A DNA stretch of 39,078 nt from Nitrospirae bacterium GWC2_57_13 (GTDB taxonomy: Bacteria > Nitrospirota > UBA9217): assembly GCA_001805055.1 (NCBI GenBank), contig MHDZ01000007.1:1-39078 (forward strand), written 5' to 3'. The notes below the pieces were generated by a model. That model saw nothing but the letters and a program-made list of their open reading frames with translations, searched no databases and had not been told where the DNA came from. The position numbers and the translations under genes are program-made. Below are positions 30,955 through 36,249 of the stretch, piece by piece; within the stretch, counting starts at the first letter, position 1; each line of letters opens with the position of its first letter.

Positions 30955-32961
30955 CTACGGCAGCTCCGACGCTTTCGTTACCACGCTATAATCCACGCCG
31001 AGAGCGTCTTTGAAGTGCCGCCCACCGCAGTGGATCTTCCACAGTTCGTCCTGACGCAGGTCGGATTTCCAGTCCGCATCCTTCGTTTCCCGCACCAGAT
31101 ACAGCAACTCCTCGCCGGTGTTGTCCCCGTGTGAGTCGCGCGGCTCCATAACGATGGCCCAGTCCGGATTGTATTCTCCTACCGGCGTTGGAACCGTAAA
31201 CCATCTCGGCAGTTTGAGATACAGTTTCACATCATCCCGTTTCTCAAGACCCATGACAAACTCGCGTTCCACTTCGGAGTCGTAAAGAACATGGTCATAC
31301 ACCGAATGCGCGGCGGGAACCAGATATTCCGCCCAGCTCGGAATGTCCTCGAACTGGGTCATCTCATACCATGAATTAACCTTTTCATACTGAATGCCGT
31401 TCACGAGTTGGTCAAGAATCTTCTCCTTAATGATCCGCACGGCAACACTGGCGAACTCGTGAGGGTTGTCCACGGCCGCTTTCTTGTTCTGCGACCGCTT
31501 GTAGATTTCCAGGAGCGTCGTGCGCGTCAAGCGGAGCGGCGGGGTCGTATGCTCCATGAGGTTCGCCATGATCTCCACAAGGTTCGGCAAGGGATACCGC
31601 TGGTCGAGGTAGAGCACCGGCCTGTCCGCGCTCACCTGGATCGCGTCAAAGGTGTCTTCGGTGTTGACCGACAACTGCGCCTTGGTGACCGTTACGCGCG
31701 GGGGTCTGATCTCCGTCTTCTCGATCTCCGGGACGACCTCGTTCAAAAGCCTCTCGGTATTGATCTTCACGTTATAGCGCGTCTTGTGCTTGATTAGCTC
31801 CCAAAGCTCCTTGAACTCCGGCTTAAGGGTATATTCCTTCCGGAGTTTGACCGTCACCCGCTTCCGGGCATCGGCAGGCTTGGGCGGCAAGCCTTCCTTG
31901 CCGTACTCTTCCTCAATTTCAGTCTGGAGCCGCTCAACGTACTTCTCATAGCTCTCGTTGGCCACGACCGTAAGCACGTTGATCTTCTCATCACGCACCC
32001 GGTCGCCAGCCTGGTCCACGGCCAGCCGCACACCGCGCCCAATTTCCTGGCGCTTTTTCATCTCTGATGTTGTCTGGTTCAGGGTGCAGATTTGGAAAAC
32101 ATTCGGGTTGTCCCATCCCTCGCGCAGGGCGGAGTGAGAGAAGATAAAGGACACCGGCTCGTCGAGGGACAGCAGCCGTTCCTTGTCCTTCATGATGAGG
32201 TCATAGGTCGCCTCGTCCTCTTTGGTTTTACCGGAAACAGTGTCGAGTATTTCAATAGCGCCGCCCTTGCGTTTCTTCTGGGCAAAGTACGAGGCCTGAA
32301 CGGTCAAGGGGTCAATGTGCTTCCAGTCGGGATGCCTGGCCTTTATCTCATTGAACGCCTTCACAAATAACTGCCGGATAATGCCCTCTTCCTGAGCGTA
32401 ATTATCAACTTTGTCGATGAAGAACAGGGACAGGACCTTCAGCCCGGCATCCCTGAGCTTGGCCTGTTTTCGGAAATGCTCCTCGATGGTGTAGCGTATC
32501 TGGGCCTCAAAGATGGCCTCTTTGTCCGCTCCGCGCGATTCCCCGACCTTCAGTTCCACGTTGTTCGCAAAGCGCACAAACCCGCCGCCGGGGTTGATTT
32601 CGTCTATCTCAAACCCGGCATATTCAGGCCGCTCGGCCATCTTTTCGAGCGAATCGCCGGGCCGGATCGTGACGATCTGTTCTTTGACCGTTCCGCCTTT
32701 CATCAGCTTGTGGAGGGCAAGCCGGGCCGTAATCGTCTTTTTCTCGGTCTTGATGCCGTCAAGCCGAAGAAACACCTGATTCTCGTCGTTCTCTTTTACG
32801 ACCGAGGCTACCTCGATGCGTTTCACGAGCCCCTGGCGGTATGCTTCGAACGGCGTAAGCCGGTAGATGACGTTATAGGGATTCCGGTGCGTGGCGCTGT
32901 AGCGCAGGGCAAAAAGCGGGTCGAGGGCGGATAGGGCCTTGATGCGGAGCTCGCTCTCCAT
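30955..32961 (-). CDS. Type III restriction enzyme Res subunit, C-terminal part (after amber codon)
   Basis: This 668-codon frame directly continues the N-terminal part encoded at 32965-33702: only TAG AAC separates the two, with no change of frame. It begins MESELRIKALSALDPLFALRYSATH, contains the helicase motif VI QEIGRGVRLAVDQ, and ends with a PD-(D/E)xK-like nuclease region (NPDWAIVMEPRD, then LLYLVRETKDADW). Type III Res subunits are ATP-dependent translocases and nucleases of about 900-1000 residues; the joined length here would be 915. No ribosome binding site precedes ATG 32961, so expression would need read-through or reinitiation. Confidence 0.88.
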   Translation of the reverse strand: MESELRIKALSALDPLFALRYSATHRNPYNVIYRLTPFEAYRQGLVKRIEVASVVKENDENQVFLRLDGIKTEKKTITARLALHKLMKGGTVKEQIVTIRPGDSLEKMAERPEYAGFEIDEINPGGGFVRFANNVELKVGESRGADKEAIFEAQIRYTIEEHFRKQAKLRDAGLKVLSLFFIDKVDNYAQEEGIIRQLFVKAFNEIKARHPDWKHIDPLTVQASYFAQKKRKGGAIEILDTVSGKTKEDEATYDLIMKDKERLLSLDEPVSFIFSHSALREGWDNPNVFQICTLNQTTSEMKKRQEIGRGVRLAVDQAGDRVRDEKINVLTVVANESYEKYVERLQTEIEEEYGKEGLPPKPADARKRVTVKLRKEYTLKPEFKELWELIKHKTRYNVKINTERLLNEVVPEIEKTEIRPPRVTVTKAQLSVNTEDTFDAIQVSADRPVLYLDQRYPLPNLVEIMANLMEHTTPPLRLTRTTLLEIYKRSQNKKAAVDNPHEFASVAVRIIKEKILDQLVNGIQYEKVNSWYEMTQFEDIPSWAEYLVPAAHSVYDHVLYDSEVEREFVMGLEKRDDVKLYLKLPRWFTVPTPVGEYNPDWAIVMEPRDSHGDNTGEELLYLVRETKDADWKSDLRQDELWKIHCGGRHFKDALGVDYSVVTKASELP

Positions 32962-32964
32962 GTT

Positions 32965-33702
32965 CTACGGCTCGTCGAGGATCAGGATCGGGCGCGCCGC
33001 CTGGACAAGATGGATCGGCGTTTCCCCCTGCAGGCGGTCCGTGGTCTGGTGTATGACGTTCGACGCCTTGTTAAAGGAATCGATGGTCATGACCATCATT
33101 TCCACGCCGTCGGAATTGGCAAAGTTCCGGATCTGGGAGAGGTTATCCGAGTCGTAGACGTAATAGCGGTACGGAGCATTACCGTACAACTCACGTAAAT
33201 GCGTCTGCGTGACCTGCAGGGTCTTGAGCACGCCCTCGCGGATCGCGACGGACGGGACCACGATGATGAACTTTCGAAGTCCATATCGACGGTAAAGCTC
33301 CAATGCCGTTCGCAAATACACATAGGTCTTCCCCGTCCCGGTCTCCATCTCAACCGAGAAGTTGAGAAATCTCACCCGCTTCTCCCCTGCCGCAGTCTCG
33401 ATGGTTTCTTCAATGTACGCAAAGCCGCTGTCCGGCTCAATACCGTTTGCCTGCTGAACCTTGCCGAGGTTCGTTAATAGATCGTCATGAGTCAAGGTAA
33501 GGACGTTCGCAACCGTTCCGGGAAATAGCTCGGTAAATTGAAACTGGCTGCGATGTTCGGGAGGGAGGAGAGCGGTTTGGGTATCGCCGAAGCCCAGATA
33601 AGCCGGAGCGCCGGTGATCTTCTGCTGGCCTTCAAGCAGATTCACCGCCGCCTCGACTGCCTTAACTTGGTATTCCTGATTAGCGTCGAATTTGAACTGC
33701 AT
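32965..33702 (-). CDS. Type III restriction enzyme Res subunit, N-terminal part (ends at amber codon)
   Basis: 245 residues covering the first RecA-like helicase domain: MQFKFDANQEYQVKAVEAAV at the start, the Walker A motif METGTGKTYVYL (about 119-130), motif Ia in IIVVPSVAIREGV, and the Walker B DEAD-box equivalent ILILDEP at the very end. The next codon is TAG where family members have glutamine (DEPQN), and the frame then continues as the 30955-32961 product. Truncated here, the protein would have an incomplete ATPase core. The start lies 3 nt after the hepT stop codon. Confidence 0.88.
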   Translation of the reverse strand: MQFKFDANQEYQVKAVEAAVNLLEGQQKITGAPAYLGFGDTQTALLPPEHRSQFQFTELFPGTVANVLTLTHDDLLTNLGKVQQANGIEPDSGFAYIEETIETAAGEKRVRFLNFSVEMETGTGKTYVYLRTALELYRRYGLRKFIIVVPSVAIREGVLKTLQVTQTHLRELYGNAPYRYYVYDSDNLSQIRNFANSDGVEMMVMTIDSFNKASNVIHQTTDRLQGETPIHLVQAARPILILDEP

Positions 33703-33705
33703 CAG

Positions 33706-34068
33706 CTATTCGGTCTCCGGCTTGGGAGGCGTGGGAATAAGGGACTCCAGCAGCTTTATTAGCTCGGGGATGCGCTGCGTCGCCACAGCCCATATCCGTC
33801 CATGTTTGATTTCACCGTATTCGTGAATCAACACATTGCGCTGTCCGACAAGTCCCTTCCAGTAAATCTCGGGATGAGCCTGCCGAAAAGCATCGGATAC
33901 ATGGTTGGCGGCTTCGCCGATGATCTCGATATTTCGTTCAACAGCGCCGCGAAGCATCCGGTCATTTTCATAGTCATTGTACTTCCGGGAAGAAACAAAC
34001 TCATTTACAGCTCTCGCGGCATCCAGCATATCCCATAATAACGCCGCATCGCGCTCATCAGGCTGCAT
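33706..34068 (-). CDS. hepT: HepT-like HEPN ribonuclease (DUF86) toxin
   Basis: A 120-residue all-helical HEPN protein with the Rx4-6H RNase motif visible as GQRNVLIHEYGEI (R77 to H82, with Y84). The tyrosine is the residue that MntA modifies by AMPylation in characterised pairs. The N-terminal half has the usual DAARAVNEFVSS and ERNIEIIGEAANHVSD helices. It overlaps the mntA stop by 11 nt and ends 3 nt before the restriction gene, so the toxin-antitoxin pair is embedded in the restriction-modification operon. Confidence 0.85.
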   Translation of the reverse strand: MQPDERDAALLWDMLDAARAVNEFVSSRKYNDYENDRMLRGAVERNIEIIGEAANHVSDAFRQAHPEIYWKGLVGQRNVLIHEYGEIKHGRIWAVATQRIPELIKLLESLIPTPPKPETE

Positions 34069-34363
34069 AGAGTACCTCTTTAGTCTTCATGATCGAATGG
34101 CGACGGAACGGATTGCGTATTGTCCCCTTTTCTACAAGATCCACATCACGGCCGAATATTACTTTTAATTCCTCTATCATGTCCACCCAATCGCTAAGGT
34201 CCCATCCCGCGCGCTCTTCAAAACTAACCATTACGTCCACATCGCTGTCCGGCCTGAAATCGTCGCGCAGTACCGAACCGAATAGAGAGAATTCCTTTAT
34301 TTTCCACTTCTGGCAAAACGCGATTATTTTATCCATCGGAATACCTATTTTCGTCTGTATCAT
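34058..34363 (-). CDS. mntA: MntA-type nucleotidyltransferase antitoxin
   Basis: A 101-residue minimal nucleotidyltransferase with the GSx10DxD active site (FGSVLRDDFRPDSDVDVMV, G29-S30, D41, D43) and a third acid in RDVDLVEKG. MntA antitoxins add AMP to a tyrosine of HepT to silence its RNase. AGGAG seven bases upstream selects ATG 34363; the longer frame to 34393 would overlap the mod stop. It lies 8 nt after mod and overlaps hepT. Confidence 0.85.
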   Translation of the reverse strand: MIQTKIGIPMDKIIAFCQKWKIKEFSLFGSVLRDDFRPDSDVDVMVSFEERAGWDLSDWVDMIEELKVIFGRDVDLVEKGTIRNPFRRHSIMKTKEVLYAA

Positions 34364-34371
34364 ATCCGCTC

Positions 34372-36249
34372 CTATATCGTTTTCAACCTGCACTGAAGCG
34401 CAAGGTTCGCCACAAGTTCATCGGTCATCGCTTTGTCCCGGCAAATGAACAGATCGTTCTTGCCCAAAGCCAGCGCCCTGAGCGCAACGGGCTTGAGAAC
34501 TTCATCCAGGCAGATACGGAAGCTCTGCCCCTTGTCAGGATCGGTTACGTGATAAACCGAATTCTCTTTGATCCCGGTCATGTGAATGATCTCGGAATTC
34601 AGCCCGTAGCCTTCCTTGATCGTGACTTCCCAAATCACATTCTCAGGCTTCCAGCTCGGTACGAAAGGATCGGTAAACGCCGCCATTTGTTCAGCATAGG
34701 CATCCGAATCCTTCTTTTCAGGGCCAGTCCACGGCTTATAATTGGATTCAGCAAGCTTGAACACCTTGAATCCCAAATCCTCGGCCTTATCGCCGTTTTT
34801 GAGGTCAAGTTTGCCGTCCTTATCCTTCTTCAGTTTGGCAATAACCCGGCGAACGCGCTCCTTGCCGATGTCAGCGATAGTTTTATAGCCTGCTTTACGA
34901 GCTGGGGAATCTTCAGGGGTAGACTCTGGCAGTTGGACCATGATAAATCTACACGAACCAGGATTCTCTCGGCTCAATTCATATACTGCTTGTGCCGTCG
35001 GGCATGATCCCGCAAAAAAATCCAGCACAATCGCATCTTGCTCCTGCCAAATGCAGCTAATGAGCTGTTTAATCAGTTTGGTCGGTTTTGGGAAAGGAAA
35101 AATCTTTCCATCTCCAAAATATTCTGCAATCTCTGCTGTTCCTTCTTGAGTCCATGGACCGTTGAAAACTGAATATAACTTGGCACTTCTTTCTGTCCCA
35201 TCTTCATCATGTAAGTATTGTTTGTAACGAACAGACCATTTGCCGTTGTCATTCTTGAATACCAACTCATCGTTTGCTAAAGCCTTTTCCACGCGCTCTT
35301 TCGACCATTGCCATTGCTTTTCTGGCCATATCTCATTCCCTTTCCACATGATAGGAAATCGGAGATTTTGCCGAAAATCCATGCTGGTTGTTGCCAACGG
35401 TTGGGTGAAATATAGGCCACGGGTAGGGTGTTTATCGTCCTTTTCAGTATATCTTTTTCTGGCTTCAGGATCAGGTGGCAGCTCTAAGACTCCGACTGCT
35501 TCGCGGTTTCTTGCAAACAAAAGAACATACTCACTCTGATTAACCACATGCTTTGATTTGGAGCCGCCACCATATACATTCTTCCATGTAATTTGTGCTA
35601 AGAAATTTTCTTCACCGAAAATTTCATTCATCAGCATTCTCAGATTGTGAAGTTCAATATCGTCGATACTAACAAAGATTAGTCCATCTTCTCTCAATAG
35701 CTGTCTCGCTATAAACAACCTTGGATACATCATCGAGAGCCACGCAGAGTGATAACGCCCGGAAGTCTCGGGGTTGCTCGTGAGCAGGTTGCCTTCAGCG
35801 GTCTTCTGGCCGGTAAGCTTTAGATACGTATCGAGCGGATCGGCGAAGTTGTCGGGATAGACGAAATCGTTGCCGGTGTTATACGGCGGGTCGATGTAGA
35901 TCATCTTCACCCTGCCGAAATAGGACTTATACAGCAGCTTCAGGACTTCGAGGTTGTCGCCTTCGATGAAAATGTTGTTCGTCTCATCGAAGTTGATTGA
36001 CTCCTTTTTTGCCGGCACGAGCGTGGCCCTGCTTGGTGTCTGAAGCAACCGGATCGCATCACGCTTTCCAGCCCAGGAGAAGGAATACCGCTCGGGCCGC
36101 GAGTCCACCTCATCGCCCAGCGCTTCGCGGAGCTTGTCGAAATCAATCTTCCCTTCTGTGACGATCTGAGGGAAAAGCTCCTTCAAGCGCTCCGTCTGTT
36201 CCGCACTGATAGCGGCCGCTTCTTTATTTACTGGCTGTTTATTGGTCAT
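34372..36249 (-). CDS. Type III DNA methyltransferase (Mod), beta-class adenine-specific
   Basis: A 625-residue N6-adenine methyltransferase. Motif IV is IDPPYNTGNDF (D120-PPY), followed by the target-recognition region (about residues 215-385) and then the SAM-binding motif I DFFAGSCPTAQAV (about 410-422), which is the beta-class order. The motif I glycine is cysteine here (GSC instead of GSG). The recognition region, about 35100-35600, is visibly richer in A/T than the ends of the gene. It is the first gene of the mod-mntA-hepT-res operon. Its partner restriction subunit carries a nonsense codon, so methylation may continue without cleavage. Confidence 0.92.
   Translation of the reverse strand: MTNKQPVNKEAAAISAEQTERLKELFPQIVTEGKIDFDKLREALGDEVDSRPERYSFSWAGKRDAIRLLQTPSRATLVPAKKESINFDETNNIFIEGDNLEVLKLLYKSYFGRVKMIYIDPPYNTGNDFVYPDNFADPLDTYLKLTGQKTAEGNLLTSNPETSGRYHSAWLSMMYPRLFIARQLLREDGLIFVSIDDIELHNLRMLMNEIFGEENFLAQITWKNVYGGGSKSKHVVNQSEYVLLFARNREAVGVLELPPDPEARKRYTEKDDKHPTRGLYFTQPLATTSMDFRQNLRFPIMWKGNEIWPEKQWQWSKERVEKALANDELVFKNDNGKWSVRYKQYLHDEDGTERSAKLYSVFNGPWTQEGTAEIAEYFGDGKIFPFPKPTKLIKQLISCIWQEQDAIVLDFFAGSCPTAQAVYELSRENPGSCRFIMVQLPESTPEDSPARKAGYKTIADIGKERVRRVIAKLKKDKDGKLDLKNGDKAEDLGFKVFKLAESNYKPWTGPEKKDSDAYAEQMAAFTDPFVPSWKPENVIWEVTIKEGYGLNSEIIHMTGIKENSVYHVTDPDKGQSFRICLDEVLKPVALRALALGKNDLFICRDKAMTDELVANLALQCRLKTI

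Follow-up and report, generated by a model that had tools for sequence, protein, structure and literature searches.

The window analysed here, a stretch of 39,078 nucleotides from Nitrospirae bacterium GWC2_57_13, contains a MntA-HepT toxin-antitoxin (TA) pair inserted between mod and res of a type III restriction-modification (RM) operon, which raises the question of what such a pair does inside a restriction locus whose res gene is interrupted. As the best explanation we consider it quite probable that the mod–res junction of this operon is a cargo slot, here loaded with a complete type VII-like HepT/MntA pair that provides addiction and/or second-line defence.

Organization of the operon

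The genes lie on the minus strand in the order mod (36249–34372), mntA (34363–34058), hepT (34068–33706) and res (33702–30955), with 8 nt between the mod stop and the mntA ATG and 3 nt between the hepT stop and the res ATG. The open reading frames and spacings of the preliminary description, including the 11-nt overlap between mntA and hepT, were reproduced exactly from the sequence. The operon comprises the following features:

mod, 34372–36249, minus strand: type III DNA methyltransferase of 625 aa, intact (Pfam, PADLOC)
mntA, 34058–34363, minus strand: minimal nucleotidyltransferase, the antitoxin, 101 aa, GSX10DXD intact (Pfam, PADLOC PDC-S09)
hepT, 33706–34068, minus strand: HEPN RNase-type toxin of 120 aa, RX4HXY intact (R77, H82, Y84)
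mntA/hepT overlap of 11 nt, 34058–34068, minus strand: shared by genome G298 (see below) and the majority of the nearest free-standing relatives
First part of res, 32965–33702, minus strand: N-terminal part of the helicase (ResIII) in the type III restriction subunit
In-frame TAG of res, 32962–32964, minus strand: within helicase motif II
Second part of res, 30955–32961, minus strand: remaining helicase and endonuclease domain, frame unchanged

Pfam profiles scoring above their gathering scores are N6_N4_Mtase, NTP_transf_2, HepT-like (PF01934), ResIII and RE_endonuc, and PADLOC classifies mod as type III MTase and res as type III REase. Apart from the TAG, the locus has the constitution of a type III RM system, an N6_N4 methyltransferase gene (mod) adjoining a res gene for an SF2 helicase with an endonuclease domain. 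Both mntA and hepT are preceded by good ribosome-binding sequences (AGGAG and AGAGG, respectively); a start of mntA at an upstream GTG (34393) was dropped, the ATG at 34363 with its good ribosome-binding site being preferred. The third-position G+C content amounts to 0.55 in mod, 0.53 in mntA and 0.57 in hepT compared to 0.70–0.74 in res and 0.65–0.75 in the neighbouring genes (window positions 30955–36249), and the lower values of the first three genes may reflect differing histories for parts of the operon.

A shared transcript of mod, mntA, hepT and res, as assumed in the preliminary description, is likely because the pair is nested and tightly spaced. The four genes are co-directional, and the intergenic spaces seen in the sequence are too small for separate promoters or terminators. 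No credible separate mntA-hepT promoter was found, the sigma-70-like matches in the region being near shuffle expectation. The sole good sigma-70-like match near mntA places its −10 hexamer on the mntA ATG, by which an independent promoter for mntA-hepT was ruled out.

The interrupted res gene

The res frame contains a single in-frame TAG (32962–32964) at codon 246, in helicase motif II, and is elsewhere open to 30955; the interruption noticed earlier is thus real in the assembly as deposited. The nearest Res, encoded in G298 (a genome of another family of the same phylum), shows 75% identity and an open frame at the position of the window's TAG. Because intact Res copies exist and only one stop is present, the lesion could be either recent or an error in the draft assembly of 105 contigs. 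Since the nonsense codon falls into motif II, ATP-dependent restriction is probably off, barring an assembly error or readthrough of the TAG, and the TAG is not expected to abolish methylation or the function of the TA pair. An ATG follows almost directly after the TAG (32961–32964), so that two separate Res pieces are possible in principle.

Alternatively, res might be unbroken. The TAG would then be a rare strain variant or a mistake of the assembly or its consensus, and the locus a working type III system plus a TA pair. We regard this reading as a real possibility that falls short of being probable: the stop is a lone one, the frame being open elsewhere, the nearest Res (G298) is open at the matching position and the assembly is a draft. 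The further suggestion that, with res interrupted, the TA pair has become the main thing maintaining the locus goes too far. It is speculation and unsupported as stated; the TAG is perhaps an error in the consensus of the draft assembly or has arisen very recently by mutation, and mod is intact and perhaps kept for its own sake.

Identity of MntA and HepT

Class I HEPN/MNT modules are defined by a toxin of PF01934 (or PF08780) with the motif RX4HXY, an antitoxin of PF01909 with the motif GSX10DXD and the adjacency of both genes (PMC7641770). The window carries an RX4HXY toxin in PF01934 and a GSX10DXD antitoxin in PF01909, encoded by adjacent genes, and the MntA-HepT pair nested within the type III RM operon is accordingly a real HEPN/MNT module with both signature motifs. 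The NCBIfam profiles HepT_toxin and MntA_antitoxin give 39 and 49 bits, below the equivalog cut-off (60). Judged by these scores, MntA and HepT appear to be members of the broad class that lie outside NCBI's narrow equivalog and are not close copies of a characterised pair; that they work biochemically like the characterised pair of Shewanella is therefore a presumption.

A fold search with the structure model of HepT (pLDDT 87.7) revealed the HepT toxins 6m6u, 7bxo, 7ae8 and 5yep as the best PDB matches, with a probability of 1.00, a TM of about 0.64 and a weak E-value of 0.02. The predicted fold assignment, strong in rank and probability and weak in E-value, is convincing. The matches came from the fold search alone, as phmmer and profile searches of HepT against PDB sequences gave none. 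When the window's HepT was used as query, a single HepT match was obtained genome-wide at E ≤ 0.001 (draft assembly, 105 contigs).

Recurrence of the four-gene arrangement

The Res family of the window is present in 36 of the 396 genomes of the phylum, and the order mod-mntA-hepT-res was found among these 396 in G298 as the only genome besides the window's own. In G298, an 18-nt gap follows mod, the mntA/hepT overlap again measures 11 nt, and a single nucleotide is shared by the hepT stop and the start of res. The search for recurrence advised in the preliminary description has therefore found the order again, and it is not unique to the window's contig. Because G298 repeats the four genes, their order and the 11-nt mntA/hepT overlap, the arrangement is not due to chance.

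The nesting is nonetheless rare. Mod/Res adjoins HepT in two of the best 30 HepT loci obtained by a profile search of the 396 phylum genomes, namely those of the window and of G298. Among the 11 closest relatives of the pair found by scanning 84,980 species genomes (L057–L067; identity 49–65%, two at 42%), mntA lies beside hepT with no such Mod or Res nearby, and the window's Res family is absent from the entire genomes of ten of them. The relative closest to the window's pair, L061, sits between a protease-like gene and a transporter gene. In another relative (L066:7001–7360) the hepT frame has an internal stop and mntA is open, possibly a loss of the toxin with the antitoxin kept, and G298 contains three more HepT-like genes elsewhere in its genome (C97, C17 and C52).

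By these comparisons the pair is autonomous and nested only occasionally, an ordinary free-standing type VII-like pair that landed in an RM operon. With two nested examples only, its link with mod/res may be mere co-location. The nesting described earlier recurs in G298, but it is rare, so that the locus is not a standing mod-mntA-hepT-res system and the pair is one cargo among many in a variable slot. In a tree of MntA and HepT the window's pair groups with the free-standing L061 and then with the nested pair of G298; the alternative topology uniting the two nested pairs is not rejected (p-AU 0.177), and the pair may have entered twice or moved together with the RM genes. In a comparison of selection on the operon parts dS between the window and G298 is saturated, and in the relatives checked the operon-flanking genes lie on separate contigs, with no clean empty site readable.

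The mod–res junction as a probable cargo slot

Type III operons of two phyla and of plasmid records provided 51 measurable mod–res junctions, 20 of them ≤24 nt, one 142 nt and 30 ≥426 nt in length, two of the last group (L220 and L227) being doubtful. The long gaps carry genes of the SLFN/AlbA_2, RhuM, Bro-N, GmrSD-type, DUF1016/YhcG nuclease and Ppl-like AAA ATPase families as well as a 23S-IVP protein, DUF5131 together with a PDC-M41A protein, and a DUF4160–DUF2442 pair (insert-bearing loci: L138–L148, L151, L156, L196, L198, L199, L201, L222, L226, L228, L236 and L237). PADLOC defence candidates among the slot contents are PDC-S05, PDC-S13, PDC-S02, PDC-M41A and HEC-06. According to the plasmid annotation as deposited, DUF262, PDDEXK and RhuM proteins are encoded between methyltransferase and helicase, and other plasmid operons are insert-free. 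The DUF4160–DUF2442 pair has a TA-like layout and occupies the slot of L210, L211 and L214 (in G324, G382 and G221, all of one genus), the contents of L214 being assigned via their close likeness to those of L210 and L211. In the plasmid type III operons L196, L198, L200, L202 and L203 an AAA-like or helicase/SNF2-type gene is located upstream of mod, which recalls reports on the m4C type III group.

An overlap of 4 nt between the last gene of an insert and the start of res is common, and for this reason res appears to remain translationally coupled to the insert. Inserts are present in 14 of 16 operons with a short Res (<950 codons, the class of the window) and in 10 of 29 with a longer one, a difference whose Fisher p of 0.0014 is overstated because the loci are mutually related and the window was selected for its insert. 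On the basis of the two-group gap distribution and the cargo families, both of which concern the mod–res junction alone, this gap appears to be a cargo slot. Most long gaps hold defence-type genes.

The slot contents also bear on the view that the pair is an addiction module only, which inserted into the operon by chance and mainly stabilises its own neighbourhood. Random insertion would not lead one to expect a junction that gathers mostly defence-type genes. The view agrees with the rarity of nesting, with the unrelated genes adjoining the relatives and with the fact that a single nested origin of the window and G298 pairs is not demonstrated by the p-AU value given above; on balance we consider it rather unlikely.

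Proposed function of the pair

In Shewanella, MntA adds AMP to the tyrosine of the RX4HXY motif of HepT and thereby blocks HepT (PMC7641770). For the preferred reading, a cargo slot loaded with a complete TA pair, we propose the following scenario. A single transcript starting upstream of mod would give rise to all four proteins. MntA would AMPylate the tyrosine of the HepT RX4HXY motif and hold the RNase off. A drop in antitoxin supply or activity, brought about by loss of the operon or by a phage insult such as the shutting down of host expression, would free HepT, which would then cut RNA and bring growth to a stop. The pair would in this way confer addiction and/or second-line defence independently of Res activity and make the operon harder to lose. 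An abortive back-up upon failure of restriction, as put forward in the preliminary description, is plausible.

It is improbable that the pair acts as a PrrC-like guardian, in which the Mod/Res complex or its expression restrains HepT and phage inhibition of restriction releases it: PrrC/EcoprrI has the same layout, with a HEPN toxin inside an RM operon (PMC3710099; PMC12707154), and the hepT–res junction is a coupled one, but HepT is devoid of the NTPase domain of PrrC, and an RM sensor would be unnecessary because the pair has a dedicated antitoxin of its own and its closest relatives live without mod/res. We are similarly doubtful about a broader version, according to which the mod–res junction in this branch of type III RM systems is a dedicated, reloadable guardian slot, its cargo, from HepT/MntA and DUF4160–DUF2442 to RhuM, GmrSD, the DUF1016 nuclease and others, being selected for acting when type III restriction is blocked and its translational coupling to res being part of the sensing.

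Inserts, mostly of defence-type families and often with translational coupling to res, occupy over half of the type III mod–res junctions that could be measured. Should a larger survey bear this out, the gap between mod and res would be an easy place to look for novel defence genes or TA pairs, and the operon mod-mntA-hepT-res would be a small one for asking whether embedded toxins respond to restriction failure.

Comparison with known systems

The HepT/MntA system of Shewanella oneidensis (SO_3166/SO_3165, type VII) shares with the window's pair the order of the genes, with the antitoxin gene first and the toxin gene adjacent, and the GSX10DXD and RX4HXY motifs in the families PF01909 and PF01934 (PMC7641770); moreover, the predicted fold of the window's HepT is nearest to the solved HepT structures. 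The window's pair differs from that of Shewanella in scoring below the NCBI equivalog cut-offs and in lying within a type III RM operon.

A linkage between HEPN genes and RM operons was reported in 2013 (PMC3710099), and embedded defence genes are best documented in type I RM operons, where they include PrrC, RhuM and others (PMC3710099). PrrC/EcoprrI, a HEPN anticodon nuclease in a type IC RM operon, resembles the locus in having a HEPN RNase gene within an RM operon. However, the RM complex inhibits PrrC, which possesses an NTPase domain of the ABC type, whereas the window's HepT is a bare HEPN domain accompanied by its own antitoxin gene. An extra gene in a type III operon is also known from the m4C group of type III RM systems (PMC8259958); there, a helicase-like gene is positioned 5′ of mod, whereas the pair of the window lies between mod and res.

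A further related concept is that of the PDC candidates, which derive from "guilt-by-embedding" in the preprint of Payne et al. 2024 as cited in PMC12988326; according to this citation, PDC-M05 is a nucleotidyltransferase and HEPN pair. Gene order and the PDC-S09 match of MntA place the window's genes in this class of defence-type genes inside another defence operon. As far as the cited account goes, the window differs in the type III nature of its host operon and in an insert that is a complete two-gene pair, and its exact case may already be contained in the preprint. A literature search that reached few subscription papers or preprints yielded no paper on variable genes, or on a TA pair, at the mod–res junction. 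The locus is thus a clean example of a known habit, the embedding of defence genes in other defence systems, and not a new kind of system.
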